Below, piece by piece: positions 143-15,798 of a stretch of DNA of 44,730 bases. Made by a program: the position numbers and the translations under genes. Below the pieces are notes generated by a model, which had not been told where the DNA came from, did no database searches, and saw only the letters and a program-made list of their open reading frames with translations. The stretch covers positions 1 to 44,730 of the forward strand of contig CAJWCO010000019.1 in the NCBI GenBank assembly GCA_913031145.1, read 5' to 3'. The stretch comes from an uncultured Cellvibrionales bacterium. Its GTDB lineage: Bacteria > Pseudomonadota > Gammaproteobacteria > Pseudomonadales > Porticoccaceae. Position 1 is the first letter of the stretch. The number at the start of each line of letters is the position of its first letter.

Positions 143-874
143 CTAGGTTGTTTCTATCGCTATTGCCCTAACCCAGGTTCCCTCCATGCGCTCTACATTT
201 AACGGCATACTCATGAAGAAAACGCGATCCTGCGTGAGTAATTCTATGTTAGACAGTGGGTAGACAATTGGAATGTTATTCCCCGTCATGGCTCGGTGCG
301 TCGGGCTATTCTCAGGCTCCGGCGCTTGCGTGTTAGTCTCCCAAGAAATACCGGGAACACCCACACCCAACATCTTAATTTTTTTCTCTTCGGCTAACCA
401 GTTGGCCGTGTCGCCGACTAAAACCGGTTGATCATCGTCACTCCAGCAACTTGCCAACAAGACGATATCGCCCTCTCGAACATTAGATAGGTGTTCTGGC
501 AAGATCGACTGACCCTTGATGTGGTCCAGGTTGCATACGCACGCATCGCCATAATACGTGTTAAGCGGCATATCCCAGATGCCCTTCATACCACTTGGCA
601 GAGACGCCCAATTGTCGTTATGACCCACGCCGAGTTGAATATGCGTCCCCATATGCCCGCTCAAACCCCCGATTGGCCAATCCGCGACGGTCCCAACGTT
701 ACTTCCAATCAAGTGCTCAATAGTCCCGTCTTGTTCATTCACTGTCTCTTCGCTGAGCCAGAGCATGCCGTAAACATCGCGCGTGCCAGCATCAATCGTG
801 CCGTCTAAACGGGCAACCCTAGCCACCAGTTCAGCGGTAAGATCCACCACTTTTTTATTCTTTAAGCCAATCAT
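143..874 (-). CDS. Cyclase-family (PF04199, kynurenine-formamidase-like) hydrolase 1
   Basis: A 243-residue protein of the cyclase family, metal-dependent amidohydrolases and lactonases typified by kynurenine formamidase. The family normally carries HxGTHxDxPxH, supplying the metal ligands. Here the matching segment is HMGTHIQLGVGH (residues 74-85): the first two His are kept, the metal-binding Asp is Gln80, and the last His lies one residue further along. No signal peptide, so cytoplasmic. Its ATG overlaps the TGA of the upstream cyclase gene by four bases (ATGA), so the two are translationally coupled and may form a heteromer. It is last in the kinase-cyclase-cyclase block. The substrate is not deducible; hydrolysis of a cyclic amide, lactone or acyl-amide in this catabolic island is inference. 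Confidence 0.85.
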   Translation of the reverse strand: MIGLKNKKVVDLTAELVARVARLDGTIDAGTRDVYGMLWLSEETVNEQDGTIEHLIGSNVGTVADWPIGGLSGHMGTHIQLGVGHNDNWASLPSGMKGIWDMPLNTYYGDACVCNLDHIKGQSILPEHLSNVREGDIVLLASCWSDDDQPVLVGDTANWLAEEKKIKMLGVGVPGISWETNTQAPEPENSPTHRAMTGNNIPIVYPLSNIELLTQDRVFFMSMPLNVERMEGTWVRAIAIETT

Positions 875-1689
875 CGAAGCGACTCCTCTGGTTGGAATGC
901 GACAGATCTGACAAAGCTGGCTTCGAGGTGGGGTATATGAAGTGGCATACCCACATAAAAAACCCGATCTGACGTAAGCGTGTCAAGATTCACCAGCGGG
1001 TGCACAATGGGAATATTTGCGCCCAATAACATACGTCGCACGGGCGAGTTGTCCGGCGCTGCCACTTTAAGATCGTATTGCCATTCAATGCCCGGATAGC
1101 TACAACCCAACATTTTGATTTTTCTGTCGTTAATGAGCCAATTGACCGTGCGGGCTGACAACCACGGCTGATCCAAACCCTTAAACGGGCTCGTCATTAA
1201 CACAATATCTCCGCGCTGAATATTGTCTAAATGATCGGGTAAAATTTCTTGGCCGCGAACATCTCCGGGTAGACTTTTCGTTCGATAGCCTTCGCCCTTC
1301 GGGTATTGCTCACTCTCTGCGAGCGCTCGTGCTTGGAGGTGGGCGAGATTACACACTGCCGCCTCGCCCAGGAATGTTTCAAGATCAAGTTCCCAAAGAC
1401 CCTTTATGTCCTCTGACACCCCAGCCCAATGGCTGATATGCCCCTTACCCCCCTGCACATGTGACCCATTGTGAGACGACATGCGTTCTTGTTTTAACAC
1501 CTCATCACCCTTCGGCGCAGCATAGATGGTAAACAGCGAGTTATCTCCGGGAAACCGCCCTTCCCACATCACCCAAGGTCGTCCGTACGGATCCAATTCA
1601 CCTTCTTCTATGGAACCATTCGTCCTTTTGATACGCGGCACGATACGTGGGCTCAAATCTATCGCTGTATAACCCTCTAATGAGAACAT
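871..1689 (-). CDS. Cyclase-family (PF04199) hydrolase 2
   Basis: A second cyclase-family protein of about 272 residues, clearly related to its downstream neighbour (shared RKIKMLG, ANIPIV.PL, DRVF and MPL segments) but longer by an insertion of about 25 residues near the middle. Its metal segment is HNGSHVQGGKGH, again with Gln where the family has Asp and with the same extra residue before the last His, so the change predates the duplication. I chose the ATG at 1689, which has AGGA five bases upstream. An ATG six codons earlier (1707) has no good ribosome site. Its stop overlaps the start of the next cyclase gene. The kinase gene lies about 100 bases upstream on the same strand. Confidence 0.85.
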   Translation of the reverse strand: MFSLEGYTAIDLSPRIVPRIKRTNGSIEEGELDPYGRPWVMWEGRFPGDNSLFTIYAAPKGDEVLKQERMSSHNGSHVQGGKGHISHWAGVSEDIKGLWELDLETFLGEAAVCNLAHLQARALAESEQYPKGEGYRTKSLPGDVRGQEILPDHLDNIQRGDIVLMTSPFKGLDQPWLSARTVNWLINDRKIKMLGCSYPGIEWQYDLKVAAPDNSPVRRMLLGANIPIVHPLVNLDTLTSDRVFYVGMPLHIPHLEASFVRSVAFQPEESLR

Positions 1690-1792
1690 GCTATTCCTAT
1701 GAGACATAAAATTTCTTTAAGGCTACGCGGTACCGCCCTGCCATACAAACGCGCAGACAAAGATTTCACCCATTACCGCCTTATTATCTCGC

Positions 1793-3070
1793 TTAAATCT
1801 CGGCAAGGCGCATCCGCGCAAACGCAACTTCAGTAAAATCGTCCTTGCCAATAGCGCCCGCCTTAAGGACAAATGACACAGCATCAGGCTCATTGGAATG
1901 GCAGTAGCCACCGGCCAATTCATCAAAGGCGGACACCTGAACCACGTTTATCCCCAACATGTTAATGACTTGGCCGGAGGTTTCTCCTCCAGCAACAATG
2001 AACTTTCGGACACCTAGCTCATAAAGACCCCGTGAAACCTCCCCCAGAATCTGATCGGCACGTTCGGCAGCACCTTCGCGACCGAAAGCTGCTTGGGTGC
2101 GCTTGAGCTCTTTTGCATCCGCCGAAGAGGCAACCCCGACGGGACCCAACGGCAGTCGCGTCTCGGCCCATAACAAAATTTTACTCACATAGTCAGGCGT
2201 TGCCGCAGCTTCAATCAAGTCAACTCTGAATACCGGGTGGTCATTCTCAAAGTAAGCAACTTGCCGCAATGTGGGCGCAGCGCAGCTCCCCGCAATGAGG
2301 GCCTCATAACCGGGGCTAGCAGGCAACAGCGTCTTCCTTGGCGGGTAATTTGAACGCTCATTCTCGCCTTGCAACGCGTTGGCTAAAAAAACGGGTAATG
2401 CATCAGCACCGGTCGTCAAAGGCCAATTTACGGCAACATCTGCAAGGCGCCGCAGGTCCTCGTCGTCGACCGCGTCAACGACATAAAACGTCGGCGCTTG
2501 CGGTCTTGTCAAATGATCCTCAATCGCTGATTTACCGCGGATTAATACGTTGTGAGGCAGCAGTCCCACGGGCTGATTTGATTGCGCTTGCAGTACTTCA
2601 ACAAGGTTGGAGTTCAGCATCGGTGTGACCGGATCGTTACGTTTGAACGACTGTCCCAATGGCGTTGCGCCGACGAACATATGACCTTGGAAAACGGTCA
2701 CCGTATACTCTGGGAAGGCAGGGCAAAATACCGTGTAGTCGGCGCCACTCGCCTCAAGCATAGCTTCGGCCACCGGGCCGATATTACCCTTTTCGGTGGA
2801 ATCAAATGTCGCGCAGTATTTGTAGTAAAAGCGATGACAACCGATGGCTTTTAATGCGGCCACAGTTTGTCGGGCTTCCTTTTGTGCTTCTTCGGGGCTA
2901 ATTAAACGAATTTTTCGGGCCACAACGACCGCCTGAGCCGAGGATTTTGCCACTGCCTCAAGGGCCTCGACACTACTCACCAACGGGCACTCCAACCCTG
3001 CACGCTCCAAAAGGCTCGCCACCATCATGCCGCCTGTTAAATCATCTGCGAGTATCCCAAGCTCAATCAT
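1793..3070 (-). CDS. Four-carbon acid sugar kinase family protein (DUF1537, OtnK/YgbK-like)
   Basis: Cytoplasmic ATP-dependent kinase of the DUF1537 family, whose characterised members phosphorylate threonate, erythronate and related four-carbon sugar acids. Family marks are ADDLTGG at the N-terminus, YYKYCATFDSTEKGNIGPV, CPAFPEYTVTVFQGHMFVG, and VAGGETSG in the C-terminal nucleotide-binding domain. Length (about 425 residues) is normal. The ATG at 3070 is preferred: GAGGG lies about nine bases upstream. A longer frame starts with a GTG that overlaps this ribosome site. It heads a block with the two cyclases. The usual partners of this kinase (PdxA2-type dehydrogenase or a class II aldolase) are not in the window, so the fate of its product is unknown. 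Confidence 0.9.
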   Translation of the reverse strand: MIELGILADDLTGGMMVASLLERAGLECPLVSSVEALEAVAKSSAQAVVVARKIRLISPEEAQKEARQTVAALKAIGCHRFYYKYCATFDSTEKGNIGPVAEAMLEASGADYTVFCPAFPEYTVTVFQGHMFVGATPLGQSFKRNDPVTPMLNSNLVEVLQAQSNQPVGLLPHNVLIRGKSAIEDHLTRPQAPTFYVVDAVDDEDLRRLADVAVNWPLTTGADALPVFLANALQGENERSNYPPRKTLLPASPGYEALIAGSCAAPTLRQVAYFENDHPVFRVDLIEAAATPDYVSKILLWAETRLPLGPVGVASSADAKELKRTQAAFGREGAAERADQILGEVSRGLYELGVRKFIVAGGETSGQVINMLGINVVQVSAFDELAGGYCHSNEPDAVSFVLKAGAIGKDDFTEVAFARMRLAEI

Positions 3071-3244
3071 GACGCAATCCCTCACTGTGTGTAGGACGCG
3101 ATTTTAACTCAACAGGTGTCACTGGCACTAATGCATAAATAGACGGCTATTTTGAATGAAAAAAGTGCCAAGTCACATCGGCTCAAGCGCCTCGAGCCCA
3201 TGCAGTTTTTATCTAACCTGTCTGCAAAAAAATAGGGTGCTTGC

Positions 3245-3302
3245 CCGTCTCAACGCCCCTTTGTAAGTTACGGGGACGGACCGTGGTGGGGCGTTGAGAC
3301 GG
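3245..3302. repeat. Perfect 15-bp inverted repeat
   Basis: CCGTCTCAACGCCCC (3245-3259) and its exact reverse complement (3288-3302) are separated by 28 bases. On the minus strand a run of seven T follows about 12 bases beyond the stem, rather far for an intrinsic terminator of the DUF3604 transcript. An RNA stem-loop, protein-binding site or remnant of a mobile element are alternatives. Confidence 0.7.
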
Positions 3303-3519
3303 TTTGCGAATCACGGTGCTTCGCTAGCCAATCAGGCCTGATAAGGTTTTTAGCCACAGTCTGAACGCAGATCGCGTCGACATGTCCATAAAAACTAGCT
3401 CATGCTAGGTGCGTGTCTTGCCGTGAGGCCTCCATTCATTGCCGGCTCAATGTCGCTGCTCAAAACGTACATCAAGGCGACGGTTTTTTCACTTTTTCGG
3501 CGCGATTAAACACGCATTT

Positions 3520-3530
3520 TTTGGGGGAAA
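3520..3530 (+). promoter_or_regulatory. WWTGGGGGAWW element, copy 1 (TTTGGGGGAAA)
   Basis: Matches the element found upstream of several catabolic genes further right. It lies in the gap between the DUF3604 gene and the kinase start, about 450 bases upstream of the kinase. One of the two weaker TTT-type copies. Confidence 0.35.
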
Positions 3531-3809
3531 GCGCCTTATCTGCTTTTATTATTTATCATGTCCCGAACATGTTTATGCGCTCTTTGACCGCCGGTTAAAT
3601 AACACTGCGCAATGGACGTGACCTTGCCACTTGTCAAAAGCACTCAGCACACCTCATCTTTTAATGTCTGCGCCATCTTTGCCGTCACGACAATCAGTTG
3701 CCTTGATCAGCGGCTAGGGGCCACTCTGCGGTTTGCCCGCGTCCTTTGGCAGTGCGCGGTATGCGCTCATCGAGCTTTGCCGGCGCCGCGCAGATTTCCT
3801 GTCAAGGCG

Positions 3810-5684
3810 TTAGGGCGTATACCAAATGGGCGAGGAGTAAGCACGTTCCTGAATAACCTGCGGCGAGGGTGCACTCAACCGCTGATAGAAATTCGCATCA
3901 TAGGTGGTCCAGCGAAGCGTAGGAATTTCGATGACTCGAACATAATAAAAAGCCGACTCGTCGCGCTTGAAACTTGGGTCAACCCAAACAGCGGCGAGGG
4001 TATGCTCGCCGATGGAATTTAGATACGTGGCGTTCTCAATATCGACGCTTGACCCTACAGGGGGCAACTGACCATCCTCAGTCAATCGTCGATCACCCGA
4101 CCAATCGACCTCACTAATTTTTTCATGTAACTGACCCGAAGTATCGCGCCAACCCTTGATAATTTGGATGCGATCTAGATTCGCCCCACGGGGGTCTTTA
4201 ACCGCGCTGATAAGAAAGCTCGGTGCGCGATCAGTACTCGACCCCAATAGGTCTCCCCCCATCGGCACACCCTTTTGATAACCGATCTCGGCGAAATCTG
4301 GGCGAAGCAGATCATTCGGCTGAAAATCCCAACCCGCAAAGAAACGCAGCGAGATGCGCGGCCCACTTGTGGCATAGACTTCACGCCGCCTGAGTGCCGA
4401 AAAAATCGCCTCGCGCGTGTTTTCAGTCGCCCAAACCGCGGCATATCCCGATGCAGAATAAATGGATGCGTTGTTCGCTCGATAAGGACTCGGTTGGTGA
4501 CTCGCTGTCTTACCCCAGAAATTTTCCTCACGCGCCGTCGCTAACCCCGTGTGCGAATCGGTTGAGCCAAGCATGCCAAACTTGAAAGGGTTCACGCCCA
4601 CTTGCGCCTCAAGTTGCAAGCCTGTTTTTAATGCACCTCGAGCAAACGACTGTTTAGCTTGATCCAGCTTAGCCATATCTCCCGGGCGAGAAAATTTGCT
4701 CATCATGTCCCACCATATTTTTTCATGCCCGGCAAAATTATCACTCGGCGATATTAAAGGTGCCGTTTCACTGTCTCCTTTTATTTGCGTCACCTCCATC
4801 AACGGCTCAATTGAAGCGCGCGTTTTAGCGTATTGAGCCGTGATCTTTTTTCCGTCAAAGGTTGTCGGTTTAAACATGTTGCCGCGGCTAAGGTTACTGT
4901 TGTGCGGGATTGAGAGGACATCACTCCCAGTGGTTTTTCGGTACCGTTCCAAAAATGCCCATAAATCCTCCGGGTTATCGCTGTCAAAAGCTGAAAAAGG
5001 GATGATCTTCTTGGTATGGACGGGGCCTCCCGCGAAAAGAACGTTCCGATGCAACATCCCGCTGGAATATTCATAGCCCGCAAACGTGGTAAAATGACCC
5101 GGGTCATTGTGCTTTTCGGCGCTATCGACAACCTCGTGCCAAATATGCCGCTTAAAGTCGTCGTCTAGTAAAAATTTTTGGGATTTTAATGATTTACCTT
5201 TTTGAAGTGCGTGACTTGCGGCCTGATATTCGGCTTCTGTCGACGCCCCCAGCGCCTGCTCTGTTGACGGCAAACGTCTTAACGCGTCAAAAACACGTCT
5301 ACCGGCTTCTGCGTTAATTAACGCGGGATGCTTGGCCGCAAGCTGGGGAAATACCCCCATATTTTCAGCATGATCTGCCACCATCATAAAATCGAGCGCG
5401 TCCAACAATTGCGCGTATTGGCCATCGGAACGAATTTTTTCTCCCTTAGCGAATCGATAAGCGTCGTCAGGTGTTATCCTCGCGCCCATCGAGTAGGCAT
5501 CTGCAGACACGTATGTGTGAACATGAGTGTCGCCCCAATAGAGATGACGGGGATACGTTTGGCGCACTGCAGGCGCATAGGACTCAGCCCCCCAAACATT
5601 CACCGAGGGTAGCCCCGCACACACCCACATTAGCCATATTAATAGCGACGCACGACGTCTTGCAAAACATCCTACGCCCGTCAC
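3810..5684 (-). CDS. Exported DUF3604 (PHP-like metallohydrolase) protein
   Basis: A 624-residue DUF3604 protein, distantly related to PHP-type metal-dependent phosphoesterases. GDTHVHT (residues 51-57) and MVADHAE near residue 117 supply typical metal-binding Asp and His residues, and STDSHTG further on supplies another pair. The N-terminus has an Arg-rich n-region, a hydrophobic stretch (LLIWLMWVCAGL) and a likely cleavage site near VWG-AE, so it is probably periplasmic. The start is a GTG, with GAGG eleven bases upstream. It is the last gene of the run gldA-like / ADPRG / ECH / ADPRG / DUF3604, 37 bases after its neighbour. The substrate of the family is not established to my knowledge. 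Removal of a phosphate- or sulfate-type ester before import is inference. Confidence 0.9.
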   Translation of the reverse strand: MTGVGCFARRRASLLIWLMWVCAGLPSVNVWGAESYAPAVRQTYPRHLYWGDTHVHTYVSADAYSMGARITPDDAYRFAKGEKIRSDGQYAQLLDALDFMMVADHAENMGVFPQLAAKHPALINAEAGRRVFDALRRLPSTEQALGASTEAEYQAASHALQKGKSLKSQKFLLDDDFKRHIWHEVVDSAEKHNDPGHFTTFAGYEYSSGMLHRNVLFAGGPVHTKKIIPFSAFDSDNPEDLWAFLERYRKTTGSDVLSIPHNSNLSRGNMFKPTTFDGKKITAQYAKTRASIEPLMEVTQIKGDSETAPLISPSDNFAGHEKIWWDMMSKFSRPGDMAKLDQAKQSFARGALKTGLQLEAQVGVNPFKFGMLGSTDSHTGLATAREENFWGKTASHQPSPYRANNASIYSASGYAAVWATENTREAIFSALRRREVYATSGPRISLRFFAGWDFQPNDLLRPDFAEIGYQKGVPMGGDLLGSSTDRAPSFLISAVKDPRGANLDRIQIIKGWRDTSGQLHEKISEVDWSGDRRLTEDGQLPPVGSSVDIENATYLNSIGEHTLAAVWVDPSFKRDESAFYYVRVIEIPTLRWTTYDANFYQRLSAPSPQVIQERAYSSPIWYTP

Positions 5685-5721: not shown

Positions 5722-7116
5722 CTAAGCACCGGCCATCGCCGAGACTTTGCGATAAACCTGTAACGTGCGCTCTGCCAAGTCTGACATGGTCACTTCCTGA
5801 AAGCCGATAACACTGGGTCTAATCGTGTCATTCAAAGGCGCGACCAAAATTGAGTCCATTGCCTTCGCACCCATCGCCGCACCCGTAATCGAGCCACAGG
5901 TTGCACCGTTACAGTCGGTATCGAGGCCACCTTCCACAGATCTACAGATCGATTGATGAACATCCATCTGGCCAAAGATCATCGCGCCAATAACAACCAA
6001 TGCGTTATTGACCGTATGGACGCCATTTAGATCGCCATAGTGCGCGTCCACCCAATCCATATAGCCTTCGAAATCATCGTGCACCTGCGCCTGCTGCAAC
6101 GCATTTCGGCAGGCTTCAGCAAGCTTCGAATTTTTCGGTATCTCGGACAACCCGATCGCTACAAGTGTGTAGGGATCATTCTCAACAAAAGCCGCTGCCA
6201 CGATGGCCGCAAACAACATTTCCCCGTAAATACCGTTAGCCCGATGCGTCCAACTCGCATCGCGAAATGCGAATTCGGCGGCCAGTTCGGGGTTCCCAGC
6301 ACAGGCATAACCCCATCCATCAGCGCGAATCTGCGCGCCAATCCATTCTCGATAAGGATTCCGGTTGCTACTGGTGTAGTCACTGGTCACCCAACTTCGA
6401 GTCGTCGTGTCGCTTCTTCTGGGCACGGCGTTGTTGTAGTTGAGAATGGCCTGAGACTCTGCTGTACAAATAGCGTTGTAAGGCAGACAAGAATTCCAAA
6501 ATGTTGCAATGTCGTGCCAACTAAAACTGGGCCCCACCTTTTCTAGTATCGCCAGAGCAATCAGCGTGTAGTGAATGTCGTCATCGGGCTCCATATAAGT
6601 AATATTTTCACGCTGTGACTGCGGGGAAAAAAGGGTAAACGCGTCTCCTGCATCAGCACCGCTAAAATAGTCATTTAACGGCCACTGACAACGATTTTCT
6701 AAATAGGTCCTGATCGCCTTCCGACCGCGCATGCCTTGTTGACCCAAAATACCCATATGCTCAACCGGCTTTCCCAGTGCACAGCCAGCCGCGCGTCCCG
6801 TCCATGCTCCGTGAAATTTATCGAGCAGATCGGCTTCTTTAAGGCCACCCATTTGTCGGGGACCTTCTGGCCGCTGCTTGCGAATATTAACGAGGTCATT
6901 GGGCTGAGAGTAGGTAAAATTGGGATCTTTAGATAATTTCGCCAGCTCACTGAAAAGACCGTCCACCGCCTCAAAGTTCATCGCATCATTTTCATCATCC
7001 AACTGCGTTATGTGCTCTTTAAGAGCAATGGGAACCACATACCCCTCATAAGCGCGCTGCACCACTTCCATTTTTAGTAATTGGAGAGGCGATTCCCAAC
7101 CTGTAAATATCATCAT
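5722..7116 (-). CDS. ADP-ribosylglycohydrolase-fold protein 1
   Basis: A 464-residue protein of the ADP-ribosylglycohydrolase (DraG/ARH) superfamily, Mg-dependent hydrolases of N- or O-glycosidic bonds to ADP-ribose and, in catabolic relatives, probably other glycosides. The all-helical domain starts near residue 100 (GAWTGRAAGCALGKPVE). Metal-site motifs are EPDDDIHYT (residues 176-184) and GGLDTDCNGATCG (DTD at 399-401). The first 95 residues are an extra, mostly helical segment not needed for the fold. AAAGGG seven bases upstream supports the ATG. No signal peptide. It lies 69 bases after the enoyl-CoA hydratase gene. A nitrogenase or ADP-ribosylation context is absent, so sugar release from an imported glycoside is the likelier role (inference). 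Confidence 0.9.
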   Translation of the reverse strand: MMIFTGWESPLQLLKMEVVQRAYEGYVVPIALKEHITQLDDENDAMNFEAVDGLFSELAKLSKDPNFTYSQPNDLVNIRKQRPEGPRQMGGLKEADLLDKFHGAWTGRAAGCALGKPVEHMGILGQQGMRGRKAIRTYLENRCQWPLNDYFSGADAGDAFTLFSPQSQRENITYMEPDDDIHYTLIALAILEKVGPSFSWHDIATFWNSCLPYNAICTAESQAILNYNNAVPRRSDTTTRSWVTSDYTSSNRNPYREWIGAQIRADGWGYACAGNPELAAEFAFRDASWTHRANGIYGEMLFAAIVAAAFVENDPYTLVAIGLSEIPKNSKLAEACRNALQQAQVHDDFEGYMDWVDAHYGDLNGVHTVNNALVVIGAMIFGQMDVHQSICRSVEGGLDTDCNGATCGSITGAAMGAKAMDSILVAPLNDTIRPSVIGFQEVTMSDLAERTLQVYRKVSAMAGA

Positions 7117-7185
7117 TTCGTACCCTTTTAACTGTCAGCATAACCCAAGGATCATTCGTCGACCCGCACAAAAAAGCCTACCGTC

Positions 7186-8046
7186 CTATTGGTCAACCTC
7201 GATAGACTGGAAACTCGGTGGACGCTTTTCCGTAAAAGACAACACGCCCTCTTTAAAATCACTGCGCGCTAGACTTTCTCTCATCCATCGATTTGATTCC
7301 TCCATGGCACTTCCTAGTTCTTGATTCAGGTGCCGATAGACTTGCTTTTTCATCATCATGATCGAAATAGGCGCACTGGTTTGGGCTATCGCTTTAAGGT
7401 AATCCTGCGCGTCTGCCACTGACTCGCCCGAAGCTGTGAGCCGGGTGGCATAACCCATTCTGTACGCGTCTTCTGCATCAACTTTTCTAGAACTCCACAA
7501 TATATCCAGCGCGTTCGCAGGCCCTACTAGGCGCGGCAACATCCAACTTGTACCGTGCTCTGCAATCAGGCCGCGAGGTCCAAACGATGTTACAAACCGC
7601 GCATTTCGATCGACAAAACGCAAATCACAGAAAGTCGCATAACTAAAACCCAACCCCGCACAAACGCCGTTTACGGCCGCAATCAGCGGCTTTCTTAGTG
7701 CAAGGAAGTAAGTGGGCGCCAACATAAAATTAGGATCACAATCGGGATTGCCAGGGTTTGCCGCCAGATGTTCGACACTTTTTTTGATGGGCTGCCCCTG
7801 AGCACTCATTGCACTCAGCGCACCCATATCAACGCCCGAACAAAAACCTCTGCCAGCACCCGTTAAAACTGTGCCTATCACGCTTGGATTCCGCTCTGAA
7901 ACATCGAGCGCATGGCGAACTTCAGCTTGCGTAAGATCGGTCAACGCGTTTAACGTTGCCGGGCGATTTAATGTAATCGTTGCCGCGGGTCCGTCGATCT
8001 CATAGAGAATTTCTTGATAAACAGTGCACGGCGTGTCACGAGACAT
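7186..8046 (-). CDS. Enoyl-CoA hydratase/isomerase family protein
   Basis: A 286-residue crotonase-fold enzyme that hydrates or isomerises an enoyl-CoA. Diagnostic segments are ITLNRPATLNALT, the first oxyanion-hole loop GFCSGVDMG, the second, AAVNGVCAGLGFS, and GLIAEHGTSWMLPRLVG, whose Glu is the usual catalytic residue. Length is normal and the protein is cytoplasmic. The gene begins 12 bases after the stop of the larger ADP-ribosylglycohydrolase-like gene, so they are probably co-transcribed and coupled. The ribosome site is weak (GAAAAG). A CoA-ester enzyme between two glycoside-hydrolase-like genes suggests that one substrate yields both a sugar and an acid moiety. Confidence 0.92.
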   Translation of the reverse strand: MSRDTPCTVYQEILYEIDGPAATITLNRPATLNALTDLTQAEVRHALDVSERNPSVIGTVLTGAGRGFCSGVDMGALSAMSAQGQPIKKSVEHLAANPGNPDCDPNFMLAPTYFLALRKPLIAAVNGVCAGLGFSYATFCDLRFVDRNARFVTSFGPRGLIAEHGTSWMLPRLVGPANALDILWSSRKVDAEDAYRMGYATRLTASGESVADAQDYLKAIAQTSAPISIMMMKKQVYRHLNQELGSAMEESNRWMRESLARSDFKEGVLSFTEKRPPSFQSIEVDQ

Positions 8047-8058
8047 AAGGCTTTTCCA

Positions 8059-9618
8059 TCATGCGTTGCCCCGATATTGTTCTGGCAGTTCAGCGACTTT
8101 GCCACTGTAAGACACGACCCGGCCAAGGCTGACCAAAAACCCGCTACTGTGTGGATTTTTCTGCTCACTCACAACCACTTTGAGCACATGCTCGCCATCG
8201 TCGAGGCCTGTTTCCCAAACCGCCGTCGCCTGCACATGGAAGGTATGATCGAACCCAGCGTCGATGAAGAGATCGCGAGTTCCCACATGTTCCCCGTCAA
8301 TGTAGATATCAACAATCCCGCAACTCGAACTCAGCGCGGCCTGCATGTAAATACAGTTACCTCGAAATTTTACTTCGGCATAATCACCGTAGTCCGAGGA
8401 GCTAATGACTTCTTTACCGTATGTCGGTTGAGATAGAATCTCATCGCGATCCCAATCACCATGCCACTGAATCGCGTCATCAAGTGTTGGATAGGCATCG
8501 ACGATCTGACAATCGATAAACGACACCTCGCGCTCACCCACGAACTGGAACGGCTGGTTAGGCAATTCAATCATGTCACCAATACGGCCGCCGTGCTTCT
8601 CAATCAGACTCAGAGCCAACTGATAACACAGCTGCGTCGCCGAATTGTTTGAGAGTGTCGTATGGTTGTAGTCGCGGTCCATATAGGGGGCCAGTTCAGA
8701 TTTTACCTCGTCGGGTAATCTCTCGTAACCGATGATTGCCCCCATGATGCCGCCGCAATTACCCACGTTAGAATCGGTATCCTGCCCACAACGCGTGCAC
8801 ACCGAGATGGATTTTATATAGTCGCCACCCCCATAGAGAATACCCATCAACACATAGACACCATTGAAGTGACCCTGGATATTGAAACAACCGGCATCGG
8901 TTTTTGCCCATGGGCACAGGTCATTATTCCATTTGTCTTCAACTTTTTGCCACGTGACGCGCCAGTCTTCAGGCTCTTGCGCGTACCAAGCCAACAGATC
9001 GCGAAGCATCAATGCATAATCGCAGTCCACTGGGATCGTTTGCAATGCCATTTCGATCATTTCCAAGCGATCATTTTCTATAAATGCAGCCGCGTACAAA
9101 GATGCTAAAAAAACACCCGCATAATAGCCCTCTCCGTAGTTCATGATGTGCCCTACACGATCTGCGTAATCAGTCACCGCTGCGGGTAAGCCCGGACTTA
9201 TCAACCCAATAAAATCGCATTCAATTTGGAAATCAATGTCGTCAGCATGGGGATTAAAGCGCGGATGTCCTGACAGGTCCGCAGACATGCCCGCTAACAG
9301 ATTTTGACGGGCCTGACCATTGGCATGCCAAAGCATAAAGGGACTATCGGTAAATACGCGTGCAAAGTGATCGCGAGTTGCATCGATACCTTCCTTTTGC
9401 ATCACCTCGAGCAAAGCCATGTTGACGTACATATCGTCTTCATTGTGAAGCCACACTGTGGGCGCTTTCGGGTGGATATCCAACGTGCCCTCGTAGATCT
9501 CGCCTTGCGCTTTAAATTCCATAGGCTCGCCCATCATGCAGCCATATGCCTTGCCACTCCAGCCGCCAAGAATCTTATCTTTGAGCTGCTCGTGGGACAG
9601 CTGGTAGGATCGCGCCAT
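8059..9618 (-). CDS. ADP-ribosylglycohydrolase-fold protein 2 with C-terminal beta domain
   Basis: A 519-residue protein. The ADP-ribosylglycohydrolase domain spans about residues 8-350: GGWSGKAYGCMMGEP (18-32), metal-binding NEDDMY (59-64), and CGQDTDSNVGNCGG (DTD at 280-282). Residues from about 370 form a second region rich in beta-prone segments (AEVKFRGNCIYMQAALSSS, GIVDIYIDGEHV, DGEHVLKVVV), typical of a jelly-roll carbohydrate-binding or accessory module on glycoside-cleaving enzymes. No signal peptide. AAGGA about eight bases upstream supports the ATG. It lies 51 bases after the dehydrogenase gene and is coupled to the hydratase. The carbohydrate-type module argues for a sugar substrate rather than protein de-ADP-ribosylation; this is inference. 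Confidence 0.9.
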   Translation of the reverse strand: MARSYQLSHEQLKDKILGGWSGKAYGCMMGEPMEFKAQGEIYEGTLDIHPKAPTVWLHNEDDMYVNMALLEVMQKEGIDATRDHFARVFTDSPFMLWHANGQARQNLLAGMSADLSGHPRFNPHADDIDFQIECDFIGLISPGLPAAVTDYADRVGHIMNYGEGYYAGVFLASLYAAAFIENDRLEMIEMALQTIPVDCDYALMLRDLLAWYAQEPEDWRVTWQKVEDKWNNDLCPWAKTDAGCFNIQGHFNGVYVLMGILYGGGDYIKSISVCTRCGQDTDSNVGNCGGIMGAIIGYERLPDEVKSELAPYMDRDYNHTTLSNNSATQLCYQLALSLIEKHGGRIGDMIELPNQPFQFVGEREVSFIDCQIVDAYPTLDDAIQWHGDWDRDEILSQPTYGKEVISSSDYGDYAEVKFRGNCIYMQAALSSSCGIVDIYIDGEHVGTRDLFIDAGFDHTFHVQATAVWETGLDDGEHVLKVVVSEQKNPHSSGFLVSLGRVVSYSGKVAELPEQYRGNA

Positions 9619-9669: not shown

Positions 9670-10854
9670 TCAACCTTGCAGACGTCGATAGGCGTCGTCA
9701 CCAATGGTTCGAGATACGCCAAGTCCCAAATCATGTGCACGTATAATGGCATCACGAAGGGAATCGTGGTTTACCGACAATGGCATATGATGCGAAATCG
9801 GATTTGCAAGTGTGGCTTCAATCAGCGTATCGAGCGCCTCTCCGTGCTGAGCGGAAAGTGAGAGTTGTCCAAGATGGATGGGTAGCCCGACACGCGCAAA
9901 AAACTGCGCTACACGCAATGCGTCTTCGGAGTCGTCCAAAACAAGTTGCGCCAACGTACCCATCGCGACCATTTCGCCATGCAGATAGTTGTCATTAACG
10001 ACGGGTATTAGCGTATAAGCCAGTGCCAGCGGATGTGCCAGCGCAAGCCCGCCACTTTCAAACCCAATGCCACTCAGCAAAGTATTAGCCTCTACAATTG
10101 CTTCAACCGCATCCCCGTTTTGCTTCTGGCGCACTGACTCGGCGGCCGCTTCGCCATGCGCATACAGCGTCTTAGCACACACTTCACCAATGGCGCAGGC
10201 GGCCAAGGTTGGGCGTGCTCCAAGACAGTTGCTCGCAGATGGGTTGTTGTAACAGACTTTGGCCTCGTACCACGTCGCCATTGCATCACCCATGCCCGCC
10301 ACTAAGTAACGTTCACCCGCATTCGCCACAATGTCAGTATCAACGACGACAAAAGCCGGGTTTTGGGGAAAATACTCAACACGATCTTTTTTACCGTTTG
10401 CCATGTAAATAACCGAAAGGGCGGAGCAGGGTGCATCATTCGATGCGAGCGTTGGAATGATCACGACCGGAATGTCTAACCGAAAGGCAATCGACTTACC
10501 CGCATCAACGACCTTGCCACCGCCTAACGCGATCAGACAATCAATCTTTTGATCGCTAAGAAGCGCAACATGCCGTTCAATTTCTTCGTTTGTGCACTCA
10601 CCATTAAACTGTGAATTAATCGCAATCATATGCGCCGCTTGCAAACTATCGGCGACCTGCAGGCCCTGCGAACCCAACCCTCGCCGACTGGCTAGAACCC
10701 CAACGCGACGCACCTTCAACAGCGACAAATAATGCCCAATATGATTAATCACTCCGGGACCTTGAATGTAGCGCTGCGGTGCCACTAGTGCCCGCGGCAG
10801 TGGCCCGCCCCCTTTGGCGAAGATGTCTTTAGGCGAATAGTATGTACCTGTCAT
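9670..10854 (-). CDS. Iron-containing (GldA-like) alcohol/glycerol dehydrogenase
   Basis: About 394 residues of the GldA-type iron-dependent alcohol dehydrogenase family, NAD-dependent oxidoreductases of polyols. Seen are the NAD-binding GGGKVVDAGKSIA, PTLASNDAPCSALSVIY, GDAMATWYEAK, and metal-ligand histidines in LAHPLALAYTL and YLHGEMVAMG. I take the ATG at 10854; the longer reading begins with a GTG two codons earlier, too close to AGGA. It heads the five-gene minus-strand run and is divergent from the acyl-CoA synthetase gene across a short promoter region. It would oxidise a polyol or reduce a keto-sugar released by neighbouring enzymes (inference). Confidence 0.9.
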   Translation of the reverse strand: MTGTYYSPKDIFAKGGGPLPRALVAPQRYIQGPGVINHIGHYLSLLKVRRVGVLASRRGLGSQGLQVADSLQAAHMIAINSQFNGECTNEEIERHVALLSDQKIDCLIALGGGKVVDAGKSIAFRLDIPVVIIPTLASNDAPCSALSVIYMANGKKDRVEYFPQNPAFVVVDTDIVANAGERYLVAGMGDAMATWYEAKVCYNNPSASNCLGARPTLAACAIGEVCAKTLYAHGEAAAESVRQKQNGDAVEAIVEANTLLSGIGFESGGLALAHPLALAYTLIPVVNDNYLHGEMVAMGTLAQLVLDDSEDALRVAQFFARVGLPIHLGQLSLSAQHGEALDTLIEATLANPISHHMPLSVNHDSLRDAIIRAHDLGLGVSRTIGDDAYRRLQG

Positions 10855-10971
10855 ATGCACTCATTCCTGGCCAATGTTACGGTCCGCTACTCACAAAAGT
10901 CGATCTGGATTCAACAGACAATAATGCTACCATTAGGGATACCTGAATACCTATGAGTGAGGAGTAATCAA
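10855..10971. promoter_or_regulatory. Divergent promoter region, dehydrogenase operon / acyl-CoA synthetase
   Basis: About 115 bases between divergently transcribed genes must hold both promoters. I see no strong -35/-10 pair and no copy of the WWTGGGGGAWW element. GAGGAG at 10959-10964 is the ribosome site of the synthetase. Confidence 0.4.
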
Positions 10972-12663
10972 GTGTTCCAAGCTACCATAACCCGCCACAA
11001 AGCTATAGAAGAACTGTCGAGTGAGGGGCAACCTTACGCGTTGGAATTCACCCAGATCCGCAACCAAACTCAACGGGTGTTTGTCCATGCGCCAGCAACC
11101 CTTCACGACCTCTATGCGCAAAGTCGCAGTCACAAAGACTTTATTATCTACGCAGACCAGCGACTCAGCTTTGACGAGGTGTATCTTTTGGCCAGCGCGC
11201 TGGCACGAGCGCTGGTTGATGACTACGGCATACAACGTGGCGACCGGGTTGCAATTGCCATGCGCAACTACCCTGAGTGGACGGTTGCCTTTCTCGCTGC
11301 GACATCCATCGGTGCCGTCTGCGTCTCGTTCAATGCCCTTTGGGGCGCTCCGGATATGTCGTTCGCGCTCCAAGACTGCACACCTCGCGCAATCATCGTT
11401 GACGCCGAGCGACTGAGCAAATTATGCCCTCCTGAATCACACGATCTGCGTTGCCGCGTCATTCGAGTAAGAGCCGGAAATCACCCGACGGTGGTGTCAG
11501 ATGACTGGGATACCGTTTTAATGGCCAAAGCGGGTTCGCCCATGCCGACGTGCGAAGTCGCGCCAGATGATGACGCCACTATCATATACACATCAGGCAC
11601 AACTGGTCGCCCCAAAGGTGCGGTATCAACACACCGAAGTATTATTCATGCGTTACTCTCTTGGGAGTTAGACGCACAAGTGCGCGCACTCATGGGCGTG
11701 TATGAAGCGCCTAAATTAGACCACCAAGACGCCATGTTACTCGCTGTGCCGTTATTTCATGTCTCAGGATCGCATGTCGCAATGCTCGCCTCAATGCGCC
11801 CGCAACGCAAAATGGTGTGCATGTATAAATGGGATGTTGAACTCGGACTCAATCTTATTGAACAAGAGCGCATCACGGTTTTCACGGCCGCGCCCGCAAT
11901 CACCCAAGATTTGGTGCGCGCCGCAAAAACTTCGGCTCGCGACCTCTCAAGCCTGCAGGTCATGGGCGGGGGTGGAGCACACCGCGCCCCTGAAGATGTG
12001 CACGGGATTAATCAAATGATGCAATCGCTGACACCGCATACAGGTTGGGGAATGACGGAAACAAACGCTATTGGTGCAGGCATTGTGGGATCGGATTATC
12101 TCACCTATCCCGCCAGCTGCGGGCAGTGCTCAGCGGTGCTTGATATGCGCGTAGTGGACACGTCGGGGGTGTCGCTGGAAAGCGGTGAGAGAGGAGAGTT
12201 ACAGGTCCGCGGAACCTCGATGTTTAACCGCTACTGGAACCGGCCCGAGGCGGACGTAAACGCCTTCGACGGCGATTGGTTCCGCACTGGGGACGCCGCA
12301 ATCATTAACACTGACGGTTTTGTATTTATTGTCGATCGAATTAAAGACATTGTGATTCGGGGCGGCGAAAACATCGCGTGTAACGCCGTTGAAGCGGCTT
12401 TAGTCGAACATCCGCTTGTCATAGAAGCGTGCGTTTATGGCATGCCCGATGAACGATTGGGAGAGGAAGTGGGTGCAACCATTTTTATCTCAGCCCCCAT
12501 TGTGGAAAAGGAACTCGAAGACTTTCTGTTCGCTCGGCTCGCCAAATTTGAAGTCCCCCGCCACATTGATCAGACCCATAGTCCTTTGCAACGGGGTGCG
12601 TCGGGGAAGATTCTCAGACGTGCTATAAAAGCGGACGCAATCACTCGATTTCACAAGCTCTAG
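10972..12663 (+). CDS. AMP-dependent acyl-CoA synthetase (ligase)
   Basis: An adenylate-forming ligase of about 563 residues that activates a carboxylic acid to its CoA ester with ATP. Motifs in order: P-loop YTSGTTGRPKGA near residue 210, GWGMTETNA, DWFRTGD, VDRIKDIVIRGGENI, and a C-terminal GKILRRAIK with the catalytic Lys. I chose the GTG at 10972, seven bases after GAGGAG. The frame runs up to a GTG at 10957 that overlaps that ribosome site. Cytoplasmic. It is alone on the plus strand here. Together with the hydratase, acyl-CoA dehydrogenase and CoA-transferase it makes a CoA-ester pathway likely. Substrate specificity cannot be read from the sequence. Confidence 0.93.
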   Translation: MFQATITRHKAIEELSSEGQPYALEFTQIRNQTQRVFVHAPATLHDLYAQSRSHKDFIIYADQRLSFDEVYLLASALARALVDDYGIQRGDRVAIAMRNYPEWTVAFLAATSIGAVCVSFNALWGAPDMSFALQDCTPRAIIVDAERLSKLCPPESHDLRCRVIRVRAGNHPTVVSDDWDTVLMAKAGSPMPTCEVAPDDDATIIYTSGTTGRPKGAVSTHRSIIHALLSWELDAQVRALMGVYEAPKLDHQDAMLLAVPLFHVSGSHVAMLASMRPQRKMVCMYKWDVELGLNLIEQERITVFTAAPAITQDLVRAAKTSARDLSSLQVMGGGGAHRAPEDVHGINQMMQSLTPHTGWGMTETNAIGAGIVGSDYLTYPASCGQCSAVLDMRVVDTSGVSLESGERGELQVRGTSMFNRYWNRPEADVNAFDGDWFRTGDAAIINTDGFVFIVDRIKDIVIRGGENIACNAVEAALVEHPLVIEACVYGMPDERLGEEVGATIFISAPIVEKELEDFLFARLAKFEVPRHIDQTHSPLQRGASGKILRRAIKADAITRFHKL

Positions 12664-12788: not shown

Positions 12789-14411
12789 CTAGGGCAACAC
12801 GGTAATTTCTGATCGCGCGATTTCCTCACGCCATAACGCTTGCTGCTTTTGCCGCGTTTTTTCTATGCGAAGCGTCAGTTCTCTGCCTGATGGCAGTACT
12901 TTGCCCTCTGGATAATCTGCACCAAACGCACTGCGACTGACCGTCAGACTCCACGCCGCATACTCATTTTTCATGCGCTCAGCAATGTCGGGATATAAAT
13001 CGATCAGGTTATTTTCTTCGCTGGGATCACCAACAATATTATAAAGCTGGTACGGTGTGGTGACGAATGTCTTCCCCGTATAGTCAACATTTCTAACAAG
13101 CTTCCAGTCATTGTTTAACCACATGAGTCCCCCATTTGCTCTAAATCCTAGGGGTTTCTCTCGCCTTGCAGGTTCTTTTTGGAACACCTCAGCGAGCGAA
13201 ATTCCGTCGTGAACTTGATTAATTGACGCGGGATCGAGCCCGGCAACATCAATCAATGTGGGAAAAATGTCCATGGTAACCGATGGAAAATTAGACACTC
13301 TAGGCTCTATCTTCGCCGGCCACTCGACGATCGTTGGCACACGCAACCCACCCTCATAAAAGTCTTTCTTAAATCCGCGAAGGTGGCCGGTGCTGTCTGG
13401 GTCTAAACCTCTGATACAACCGTGCAGGTCGCGGGCCTCATGACTGTTAAGGTCCGGATCAATCTCGTCACTGCATGTCGAGGGGTACTCCATCTCGATT
13501 CCCTGCCCCCCAGAACCCCCAAGAAGACTCTCAGCGGCCCACACACGCACGTCCATATTCGGTGATCCGCCATTGTCACTGGTAAACCAGATCAGGGTGT
13601 CGTCTGCGATGCCAAGATCTTCAAGCCCCCGCCTTAGATTGCCGATGGAGCGGTCCATGCCAATAATCTCGCCATGGGCATGGGCTGAGGTGCGATCGAC
13701 CTTACCCAAAAAGGGAGCGATGTCTTCGTCCGACGCGGCCCATGGCCCGTGTGGGGCGGAGTACCATATGACGACAAAAATAGGGGAGTTGTCAGACACC
13801 TCACGGGCAATAAATTTAAGCGCCTCATCGACAATGACCACTGAACCTTCACCCTCAAATTGTTCTCGCTCACCATTTCGACTGAGTTCCGGGTCTAAAT
13901 CCCAACCGGAGGTGTGACTAACCCAGTAGTCAAAACCAAAAGCTCCGGGGTTATGGGGGTCATCGGCCGGGAGGGGGTGATGATCAAGCGCTTCTTCTGT
14001 GCCGACTCGATTGAGGTGCCATTTGCCAAAGTGCCCAGTTTTATAACCCGCTTCTTTAAATGCTGTTGGAAGCACCTTTTCTTGTTTATTGAGATAACTT
14101 CCAACGCGAAATGCCCCCGTCCGATCGTTTGTGCGCCCCGTCAGTACACTGGCTCGAGTGGGTGTGCAACTGGGGGATCCGGCATAAAAACGGTCCATTC
14201 GAAGGCCATTTTTCGCCATTGCGTCTAGGTTCGGTGTTCTCATAATAGGGTGGCCGTAATAGCCGGTTTGCGCCCATCCCATATCGTCTGCCATCAGTAG
14301 AACAACATGGGGACGTTTGGGAGCGTCGACACAACCGCCGAGCACCAGTAGACTGGTCACGATGACTGCAAACTTAAATAAATTAGGAGCGATTACAGGG
14401 GCCTGATTCAT
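12789..14411 (-). CDS. Sulfatase (arylsulfatase-type) lipoprotein
   Basis: A 540-residue formylglycine-dependent sulfatase that hydrolyses sulfate esters. The N-terminus is a lipoprotein signal (hydrophobic AVIVTSLLVLGG followed by Cys27). Metal ligands are in LLMADDMGW (Asp42, Asp43). The CTPTRASVLTG motif (Cys82) is the classic Cys-type CxPxR site converted to formylglycine. KTGHFGKWHL and WFTSDNGG supply further active-site residues. An anaerobic or FGE-type maturation enzyme is needed; none is in the window. GAGAG precedes the ATG. It would remove sulfate at the membrane or in the periplasm before or during uptake of the substrate through the receptor at 34863 (inference). Confidence 0.93.
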   Translation of the reverse strand: MNQAPVIAPNLFKFAVIVTSLLVLGGCVDAPKRPHVVLLMADDMGWAQTGYYGHPIMRTPNLDAMAKNGLRMDRFYAGSPSCTPTRASVLTGRTNDRTGAFRVGSYLNKQEKVLPTAFKEAGYKTGHFGKWHLNRVGTEEALDHHPLPADDPHNPGAFGFDYWVSHTSGWDLDPELSRNGEREQFEGEGSVVIVDEALKFIAREVSDNSPIFVVIWYSAPHGPWAASDEDIAPFLGKVDRTSAHAHGEIIGMDRSIGNLRRGLEDLGIADDTLIWFTSDNGGSPNMDVRVWAAESLLGGSGGQGIEMEYPSTCSDEIDPDLNSHEARDLHGCIRGLDPDSTGHLRGFKKDFYEGGLRVPTIVEWPAKIEPRVSNFPSVTMDIFPTLIDVAGLDPASINQVHDGISLAEVFQKEPARREKPLGFRANGGLMWLNNDWKLVRNVDYTGKTFVTTPYQLYNIVGDPSEENNLIDLYPDIAERMKNEYAAWSLTVSRSAFGADYPEGKVLPSGRELTLRIEKTRQKQQALWREEIARSEITVLP

Positions 14412-14844
14412 GGCAGACTCTCTCTAAACAAACGAATAAGCCAAGCGTAGCAACCTTTATACACTGCGCACAGTCCTGCATTGGCTCTATTTCACCCAAA
14501 AAGCCGAGGAATGCGCCATTTGGCCGACAGCACGTTCAGGCTTTGAAGAAACAAGACAGGCCCCTTTACTCGATCGTCAACGCACAGCACCACGAGCCGA
14601 CAGCGGTGTTCATTGAAAAGCCTGACGTGCAGTTTTTGCCGCGCACACTCAGCGGTGAACACACACTCATCGCGCCCGTTGCGGAACCCTAACTGCGCTC
14701 AAACTGTTCTATCAACCATGCTTGAACCGCACGTGCACAAGCCGGCACCCCCCGAGACGGGGTTACCCGCCTTAAAGACGGCTGTCGTGCACACCCCGCC
14801 GCGGCCCGTCGCTAGGCGATAACGCGACTGCGTTTGCTGTATCG
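14412..14844. other. Gene-free stretch, possible eroded coding sequence
   Basis: No intact gene. The plus strand keeps one frame open for over 90 codons up to a TAA at 14690, including NAQHHEPTAVFIEKPDVQF, but without start codon, ribosome site or a family I recognise. A small CCCCGAGACGGGG hairpin lies near 14750. The sulfatase promoter must be at its left end. Confidence 0.3.
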
Positions 14845-15798
14845 TTACTCACTCGCGATATCTGCGAGCACATAGCTATCCATGGTCGCATAGAAATCTT
14901 CGAGGATCGCCTTAGCATCGAAATATTCCCGAATGACTATTTCACGCGTATTTTCAGGTCGGCTGTGCCACCGCCCATGCTGCAAAATGGGCGCCGGTAT
15001 ACTGTGGGCCTGAGCCCATGACGGCTGCTTTACAATGGCTGCCGCCGCGAGGTCGTAGAGCGCGCGTGCTGGAGGATCTCCATACAAGTCAGTATGCTCC
15101 AGTAAATTCAGTGCGTAATCACCGAGATTCATAAACTCACCGCCATGCCGACCGATAACAGCCGCGCTCGCCGTAGGCCCCTTTCCAGCAATCCTGTCTC
15201 TAACCCACTGAAGACTGACTTTTACTGCACCCGTGCCGGAGAAGGCACCATAGCGAACCACCGCCATTTCAAACTCAACCGATGTGTCGAGAACAAAATT
15301 CACCGACTCGGGGTCGTTGTCTAAATTATATTCTCCGGGCTGCGGGTAATTTGAGCCTAACCAAACGACCTTCACGCGATCGATAATCGTTGGGTCTTTT
15401 TTCAACGCCAATGCAATGTTGGTCAACTTTCCGATCGCTAACAGCACCAACTTTTCAGAAGATGCTTGTCTTGCTCTGCGCACAATGAGATTAACGGCGT
15501 CAACACCATCAAAGTCAGGCTCCATTAGATGCGGCTCAATGTCAACGAAAGAAGCTGATGCCCCGCGAGTGACTGGCAAAACCCCCTGCAATCCACACAG
15601 TGCGATCACGCGCTCTGCCTCTATCGCTTGAGCTTCGATATCGCCTCCATTGTTGGTGCGATTGACCGTCAAGCCCTCGACATAAAAACACCCACCATTC
15701 AAAAGCACATAGGCGATGGCATGTTGATCGTCAATTTCGTTATTGGCATCCGTGTCCAGTAGCAAACGAAGTTTATCGTCGGGGTTTCTATTATTCAT
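14845..15798 (-). CDS. Nucleoside hydrolase family protein (IUNH-like)
   Basis: A 317-residue member of the inosine-uridine nucleoside hydrolase superfamily, Ca-dependent enzymes that cleave N-ribosidic bonds. The N-terminal calcium motif is present as LLLDTDANNEIDDQHAIA (Asp15, Asp17, Asp23, Asp24), a variant of DTDPGxDD with a spacing change seen in distant relatives. KLVLLAIGKLTNIALAL matches the second conserved segment, followed by VVWLGSNYPQPGEYNLDNDPESV where the usual GG(N) loop sits. No signal peptide. Monocistronic as far as visible. With two ADP-ribosylglycohydrolase-fold proteins it is the third ribosyl- or glycosyl-bond hydrolase fold in the island; whether the substrate is a nucleoside is open. 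Confidence 0.88.
   Translation of the reverse strand: MNNRNPDDKLRLLLDTDANNEIDDQHAIAYVLLNGGCFYVEGLTVNRTNNGGDIEAQAIEAERVIALCGLQGVLPVTRGASASFVDIEPHLMEPDFDGVDAVNLIVRRARQASSEKLVLLAIGKLTNIALALKKDPTIIDRVKVVWLGSNYPQPGEYNLDNDPESVNFVLDTSVEFEMAVVRYGAFSGTGAVKVSLQWVRDRIAGKGPTASAAVIGRHGGEFMNLGDYALNLLEHTDLYGDPPARALYDLAAAAIVKQPSWAQAHSIPAPILQHGRWHSRPENTREIVIREYFDAKAILEDFYATMDSYVLADIASE

Follow-up and report, generated by a model that had tools for sequence, protein, structure and literature searches.

Among described members of the ADP-ribosylglycohydrolase (ADPRG) fold, those to be set beside the proteins treated here are first of all ARH3, ARH1 and DraG. ARH enzymes depend on the two metals and on a distal ribose with its 2'' and 3'' hydroxyls in cis; ARH1 and ARH3 are alpha-selective, and the adenosine side varies greatly between ARH classes (PMC7050489). 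Two proteins of this fold, ADPRG-1 and ADPRG-2, are encoded close together in the window, that is, the whole 44,730-nucleotide stretch of DNA that was analysed (contig CAJWCO010000019.1 of an uncultured, probably marine, Cellvibrionales bacterium). They have the fold, the di-metal aspartate ligands and the Glu flap in common with ARH3, ARH1 and DraG, and differ from them in the replacement of the GxxMR loop, in extra N- or C-terminal domains, in a catabolic gene context, and in that no transferase partner was seen among the neighbours scanned.

A second point of reference is the yegTUV operon of Escherichia coli, which excerpts of its description present as a putative transporter (predicted to be of nucleoside type), the ADPRG YegU and the putative sugar kinase YegV, with a proposed role connected to ADP-glucose and glycogen (PMC10819704). 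The logic of transporter, ADPRG and kinase is already known from this operon, and the general idea is not new; YegU differs from the window proteins in its GAAMR loop and TDDT motif, and yegTUV contains neither sulfatase nor acyl-CoA genes. In Parabacteroides distasonis (NZ_OY725755.1), a homologue 33% identical to ADPRG-2, with a QIEAD loop, lies between a ribokinase and a nucleoside hydrolase, and a gene for a GRP sugar transporter comes next. Unlike the window, that locus has a single ADPRG, with no GldA-like dehydrogenase, enoyl-CoA hydratase/isomerase (ECH) or DUF3604 gene in the stretch. A ribose-utilisation system is known in Bacteroides. It is fairly probable that both window proteins are di-metal glycosidases freeing a ribose-like sugar from small molecules, the bond cut being most likely that of a riboside in alpha configuration or of a comparable pentoside.

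Active site and fold of ADPRG-1 and ADPRG-2

A first-pass annotation of the window, made from the sequence alone, had described two ADPRG-fold proteins flanking an ECH near a polyol dehydrogenase (the GldA-like protein) and DUF3604, one with about 95 additional N-terminal residues and the other with a beta-rich, carbohydrate-module-like tail, and had proposed comparing their pockets with those of DraG and ARH3. Each of these descriptions is borne out by the profile matches and models (Table 1). Residue register was taken from a joint alignment, cross-checked by HMMER alignments to solved structures. For ADPRG-2, the family alignment (A1) comprises 16 sequences, the window protein and 15 of 26 loci from a GTDB contig scan, the other 11 being interrupted (L067), truncated, given no clean frame by ORF calling (L082) or similar to included ones; for ADPRG-1 (A2), it comprises the window protein, nine of 11 orthologue loci (the incomplete L093 and L100 being excluded) and five paralogues. 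By these alignments, both proteins retain the di-metal aspartate pairs and the Glu-flap glutamate; at the canonical TDD position ADPRG-1 has DDD and the ADPRG-2 family EDD or QDD.

The GxxMR loop, which we take to be located at the ADP-ribose site, was used as a mark of ADP-ribosyl hydrolases. It reads NGAAMR in YegU, CGAAMR in MJ1187 and GNGGAMR in human ARH3, and is replaced by QIRAD in ADPRG-1 and QIECD in ADPRG-2, a swap that makes an ADP-ribosyl hydrolase function of both proteins less likely. Among 84 non-identical ADPRG open reading frames (ORFs), 62 are of this QIxxD type, 21 of neither type (fragments and other subfamilies) and one, the added control YegU, of the GxxMR type, in a set that was gathered with ADPRG-1 and ADPRG-2 as queries, counts orthologues and fragments, and is therefore biased to their class and uninformative on PF03747 overall. 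All three ADPRGs of the host genome are QIxxD proteins. The pattern suggests that the metal centre, which recognises the ribose, has been preserved and that the remainder of the pocket is altered. In a Marinimicrobia locus (L069, 11578-12720), an ADPRG whose loop reads GAAMY and which carries a TDDS motif adjoins a QIECD-class relative of ADPRG-2, so that both loop types can be neighbours.

Superfamily membership is clear from PF03747 scores of 125.7 (ADPRG-1) and 112.5 bits (ADPRG-2) against a cut-off of 26.2, while at E 0.001 neither protein matched any NCBIfam model, the DraG equivalog TIGR02662 included. Both models show the all-helical ARH fold. The predicted structure of ADPRG-2 (predicted local distance difference test score, pLDDT, 90.5) aligns in VIA-align with Latimeria ARH3 at Z 31.6 (298 residues, 2.8 Å) and with MJ1187 at Z 30.7, and that of ADPRG-1 with Latimeria ARH3 at Z 29.9 (301 residues, 2.9 Å), the latter model having a pLDDT of 76.7 with some stretches below 50, including residues 155-175 just ahead of the DDD motif. 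That one or both proteins are catalytically silent ARH-fold binders or scaffolds is very improbable: the models can be superposed on components of FtsHi motor complexes and of a mitoribosomal assembly, and ARH2 is presented in an excerpt as a suspected inactive member (PMC7050489), but the four aspartates and the glutamate of the window proteins are conserved across phyla.

The PF03747 match in ADPRG-2 stops at residue 304, and the model places a beta-sandwich in the remaining tail, with VIA-align Z scores of 14.6 for 3nqh, 12.8 for a CE2 esterase module and 11.5 for MiXBM. A sequence profile independently matched the tail to 3nqh (E 2.6e-5); single-sequence searches against solved structures gave nothing at E 0.001, so that profiles were needed, and at the same threshold Pfam gives PF03747 alone for ADPRG-2, with no match to a carbohydrate-binding module sequence family. 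In the model, the tail thus has a beta-sandwich fold like that of modules of carbohydrate enzymes, the same as in 3nqh (the C-terminal module of BT_2959) and 2waa (the N-terminal module of CE2 esterases), although here it is joined to an ARH-fold domain. It belongs to the ADPRG-2 family, since matches extend to query residue 504 at least in 23 of the 26 loci. In ADPRG-1, the PF03747 match starts at residue 103; fold comparison of the preceding extension gave weak matches, possibly due to chance, and its helices are common to paralogues of about 40% identity, which makes the extension a subfamily trait.

A conserved locus joined by a newcomer

Along the minus strand, the genes for the GldA-like dehydrogenase, ADPRG-2, ECH, ADPRG-1 and DUF3604 follow one another at gaps of 51, 12, 69 and 37 bp, making a single transcript plausible. 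Among 57 relatives searched, ADPRG-1 has 11 matches of 65-78% identity in ten genomes (two in G010), besides a 55-residue stretch in G004. In all 11 orthologue loci (L090-L100, ORFs of at least 110 residues considered) the order GldA-ECH-ADPRG-1 is found, and the divergent acyl-CoA ligase and, farther out, a sulfatase lie at its GldA end; DUF3604 follows ADPRG-1 in ten, the eleventh stopping at a contig end, and in L100 ADPRG-1 is shortened. In none of the 11 does an ADPRG-2 lie between GldA and ECH. By E-value, its best match among the 57 relatives covers 249 residues at 28% identity, with identities of 31-42% in a few shorter stretches, and two of 390 genomes of the order, the host's own included, have a match at E 1e-60.

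Relatives of ADPRG-2 are scattered over phyla. The 26 loci of the GTDB contig scan include sequences of 64-71% identity in Gammaproteobacteria, one further bin and one bin labelled Gemmatimonadetes, of 54-56% in Poribacteria and Marinimicrobia, of 44-47% in Planctomycetota, KSB1 and Bacteroidia, and mostly of 31-36% in Bacteroidales bins and one Clostridiales bin, L088 and L089 being short partial matches. No phage record matched ADPRG-2. A quick-method tree of 73 rows, which carries a long-branch warning and drops ORFs below 400 residues (two deliberate additions excepted) as well as identical or contained sequences, places ADPRG-2 with the Gammaproteobacteria/Gemmatimonadota clade and separates it from the ADPRGs of the genus to which its host belongs. 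G+C content was set aside as a mark of gain, the value for ADPRG-2 (50.4%) not being distinct from those of the other measured genes (50.3-54.0%), so that the case rests on synteny, distribution and tree. Judged by these three lines, ADPRG-2 was gained in this genome and its pairing with ADPRG-1 is not ancestral; ADPRG-1 is the long-standing resident of the locus and ADPRG-2 the newcomer. In a Pseudomonadales bin (L067, 6715-8247), an ADPRG-2 copy is broken by an in-frame stop.

Such a newcomer could be a passenger, a gene whose insertion between GldA and ECH was fortuitous and whose function is unrelated to the operon. Its rarity in the order and the lack of a close copy in the 57 relatives fit this explanation, as do the other contexts occupied by its relatives. 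The gene is nonetheless on the same strand as its close neighbours, its frame is intact and its G+C content cluster-like, and ADPRG pairs recur in other phyla, leaving a passenger role unlikely, though not negligibly so.

The window cluster as a reduced form

In six of the ten relatives' genomes, extended stretches of the cluster could be followed (in G006 with the last part on another contig). Past the sulfatase they hold a PfkB kinase, a second acyl-CoA ligase, a GPH-type sugar symporter and another ECH, then an ORF without Pfam match and a thiamine pyrophosphate (TPP) enzyme, with an APH-like kinase in five genomes, and finally a nucleoside hydrolase, an acyl-CoA dehydrogenase, a short-chain dehydrogenase/reductase and more fatty-acid-oxidation genes. 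The ribokinase family is nearest to this PfkB, which scores below the TIGR02152 cut-off; it is present in the cluster of nine of the ten relatives, the contig of the tenth (G008) beginning at the sulfatase. The sulfatase of the window is followed immediately by the nucleoside hydrolase, acyl-CoA dehydrogenase and short-chain dehydrogenase/reductase. Between sulfatase and nucleoside hydrolase (14412-14844) there is no ORF corresponding to any gene of the series that begins with PfkB and ends with the TPP enzyme, and the stretch between DUF3604 and the OtnK-like kinase (3086-3809) lacks the esterase that six relatives' loci have there. Searches of the window by tblastn found no remnants of the esterase (best E 2.5), PfkB (1.6) or APH-like kinase (0.18), the other missing genes being judged by ORFs alone. 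The window cluster is thus a reduced form of the larger one: of the two genes expected for ribose or nucleoside scavenging, it has the nucleoside hydrolase and lacks the ribokinase-like PfkB.

Orthologues of this nucleoside hydrolase (53-66% identity) occur in ten of the 57 relatives, with a weak 37% stretch in G023 besides; nine of these ten genomes also have ADPRG-1, seven with both on one contig, counts that come from one lineage and are not independent. The adjoining cyclase-family pair is also present in those relatives' loci that are long enough to include that region.

Table 1. Features of the window and of its two ADPRG proteins. A1 and A2 are the family alignments of ADPRG-2 and ADPRG-1.
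Feature	Coordinates	Strand	Evidence
ADPRG-1, 464 aa, ARH/DraG-fold	5722..7116	-	PF03747 E 3.6e-36; relatives' orthologues 64-78% identical
N-terminal extension of ADPRG-1, residues 1-95, mostly helical	6832..7116	-	upstream of PF03747 start; model
E119, Glu-flap position, ADPRG-1	6760..6762	-	invariant in A2; aligned with DraG Glu
D178-D180 (DDD), at canonical TDDT metal motif, ADPRG-1	6577..6585	-	invariant in A2; register
QIRAD loop 262-266, replaces GxxMR, ADPRG-1	6319..6333	-	A2 and register
D399-T-D401, C-terminal metal motif, ADPRG-1	5914..5922	-	Asp invariant in A2; aligned with DraG DxD
ADPRG-2, 519 aa, ARH/DraG-fold and C-terminal beta domain	8059..9618	-	PF03747 E 3.9e-32
E34, Glu-flap position, ADPRG-2	9517..9519	-	nearly invariant in A1; aligned with MJ1187 Glu
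E60-D61-D62, at canonical TDD metal motif, ADPRG-2	9433..9441	-	D61, D62 invariant in A1; aligned with MJ1187 TDDT
QIECD loop 131-135, replaces GxxMR, ADPRG-2	9214..9228	-	invariant over 16 A1 sequences
D280-T-D282, C-terminal metal motif, ADPRG-2	8773..8781	-	Asp invariant in A1; aligned with MJ1187, ARH3 DTD
C-terminal beta-sandwich of ADPRG-2, residues ~371-506	8101..8508	-	predicted model and profile match
Enoyl-CoA hydratase/isomerase family (ECH)	7186..8046	-	PF00378 E 9.6e-42
GldA-like iron-containing alcohol dehydrogenase	9670..10860	-	PF00465; NF006941 386 bits, cut-off 336
DUF3604 protein	3810..5684	-	PF12228 E 8.3e-217
Acyl-CoA ligase, divergent from operon	10957..12663	+	NF004837 372 bits, below its cut-off 476
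Sulfatase	12789..14411	-	PF00884 E 2.9e-49; 63-71% matches in relatives' clusters
Nucleoside hydrolase family protein	14845..15798	-	PF01156 E 6.4e-22; orthologues in relatives' extended cluster
Four-carbon acid-sugar kinase-like (OtnK-like)	1793..3085	-	PF07005/PF17042; NF043035 347.7 bits, just below cut-off 350
Two adjoining cyclase-family proteins (143-874, 871-1707)	143..1707	-	PF04199

Surroundings of homologues in other genomes

Around 12 environmental relatives of ADPRG-2 (L064-L075, 199 kb, expectations taken from genome totals), nine further ADPRGs are found against 0.25 expected, five PfkB genes against 0.34 (two of them cut by a locus end) and three nucleoside hydrolases against 0.11. 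Sulfatases number six against 2.29 expected (P 0.03) among the matches listed, or eight under looser clustering, a weak enrichment that was not relied on. Among 12 plasmid loci, picked by eye from 40 listed rows, a PfkB or ribokinase lies near the ADPRG in eight (L110, L111, L112, L113, L129, L130, L132 and L134), and ADPRG pairs occur in four (L112, L130, L131 and L132). The KSB1 locus L073 lies on a contig (G067:C35) with five ADPRG matches, four of them within L073, two PfkB matches and the sole nucleoside hydrolase match of that genome.

Lipoprotein-like starts were found in 13 of 30 homologues by a crude regular expression, which gave a false match inside ADPRG-1 and missed several evident ones (L073_9905, L074_13250 and L085). 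None of the seven homologues in L064-L071 has such a start; the 13 are among the other 23, which come from Planctomycetota, KSB1, Bacteroidota and one Clostridiales bin. An enzyme exported in this manner is unlikely to erase ADP-ribosylation of cytoplasmic proteins.

Sugar release or reversal of ADP-ribosylation

The alternative that both proteins are true ADP-ribosyl hydrolases, acting on protein, nucleic acid or metabolites (salvage of ADP-ribose or O-acetyl-ADP-ribose), with a catabolic context that is incidental or serves ADP-ribose use, is improbable. It draws on the fold, metal ligands and Glu flap, which are as in ARH3 and DraG, and on two bacterial enzymes of the ARH type which, as stated in excerpts of the respective reports, perform such reversal, BAH on protein (PMC11699363) and SCO5809 on the phosphate ends of RNA (PMC11833690). 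Against it stand the replaced GxxMR loop, the lipoprotein-like starts of many homologues as given by the crude motif, and the lack of a transferase among the neighbours scanned. The first-pass annotation had seen no ADP-ribosyltransferase, and for the surroundings this holds: no transferase family was found among the Pfam-scanned neighbours (TRANSFERASES), and none is named in the nine annotated plasmid loci. Absence from the genome is unproven, since the lack of any DraT or PARP match there is paralleled in the control genomes, which were silent too, and other transferase families were not searched. As to the metabolic glycosidase role that the same annotation had suggested, it is on sequence grounds the best-supported reading, in view of the loop swap, the conserved cluster, the ribokinase and transporter neighbours and the lipoprotein-like signals, whereas the pairing of two ADPRGs arose by a gain particular to this genome. 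The lack of ADPRG-2 in all relatives' loci, the sulfatase and nucleoside hydrolase nearby, and the third ADPRG lay beyond its view.

If both ADPRGs release sugars, a sugar conjugate would be imported and then desulfated within the cluster, and ADPRG-1, here joined by ADPRG-2, would cleave the glycosidic bond to a ribose-like furanose held by its cis 2,3-diol. The released sugar would (in relatives) be phosphorylated by the PfkB kinase, and the aglycone oxidised by the GldA-like dehydrogenase together with the acyl-CoA enzymes. ADPRG-2 may widen the substrate range, its C-terminal sandwich perhaps holding the carbohydrate part of the substrate. A steroid glycoside, an arsenosugar, a nucleoside and an apioside were each considered as the specific substrate and set aside, the genes being compatible with several.

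A number of observations weigh against sugar release. ADP-ribose binding may survive the loop change, and the nucleoside hydrolase could render a second riboside-cleaving enzyme redundant. Neither PfkB nor the sugar symporter is in the window's own cluster, and the annotated nucleoside hydrolase of Parabacteroides is not matched by that of the window. The Poisson values for the 12 environmental loci take genes as independent, and in the fetched flanks of these loci PfkB is confined to L069, L073 and L074 and the nucleoside hydrolase to L073 and L074, so that the closest, gammaproteobacterial, relatives of ADPRG-2 (L064, L066, L067 and L071) have neither. In L066 (5304-6407), a Fic/DOC protein (Pfam Fic, with a SoFic-like C-terminal domain) comes directly after the ADPRG-2 relative; Fic proteins are nucleotidyl transferases acting on proteins. 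Three of the plasmid loci (L131, L133 and L135) carry a transporter gene for sugars or solutes and, judged by gene tables alone, without tblastn, no ribokinase, though these tables may have gaps. In the haloarchaeal plasmid locus L128, no match to PfkB was found, and two matches resemble nucleoside hydrolases. Finally, a Prevotella ADPRG of unspecified class belongs to an iron-regulated hemin locus (PMC10434189).

Beyond the window, it is a tentative proposal, held at slightly less than even chances, that proteins with the QI[RE]xD loop form a cross-phylum branch of the ARH fold, consisting of di-metal small-molecule furanosidases, in part exported as lipoproteins and provided with carbohydrate-module-like domains. 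Where they are paired with nucleoside hydrolases, they may take the alpha anomer and the nucleoside hydrolases the beta. No enzymology of this class was recognised in searches of an open-access library, most subscription journals being outside the scope of the search. If the proposal is true, an undescribed glycoside hydrolase family would be hidden under the name ADP-ribosylglycohydrolase, and the products of many genes whose present annotation is reversal of ADP-ribosylation would instead release sugars, with a corresponding change in counts of bacterial ADP-ribosylation systems. The two-gene pairing in the window is in this respect less important than the subclass it exposes.

Further ADPRGs and other features

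The host genome (2.2 Mb in 56 contigs) has its third PF03747 gene on a separate contig, next to genes for an enolase-superfamily protein, a short-chain dehydrogenase and a kelch protein. Its two PfkB genes are both outside the window contig, and one of them shares the contig of the third ADPRG. A different ADPRG subfamily, with DDTD and GYDCDN motifs, is found in the same genus (L101, 9407-10666; L102, 9170-10438; L103, 9325-10593; L104, 9432-10700), where it is flanked by two sulfatase-cluster genes and has alpha-L-fucosidase and mannitol-dehydrogenase family members in its vicinity; it is a further ADPRG in a sulfated-glycan setting. Within the window, a short ORF at 39534-39998 resembles, as judged by eye, a fragment of an IS3-type transposase.

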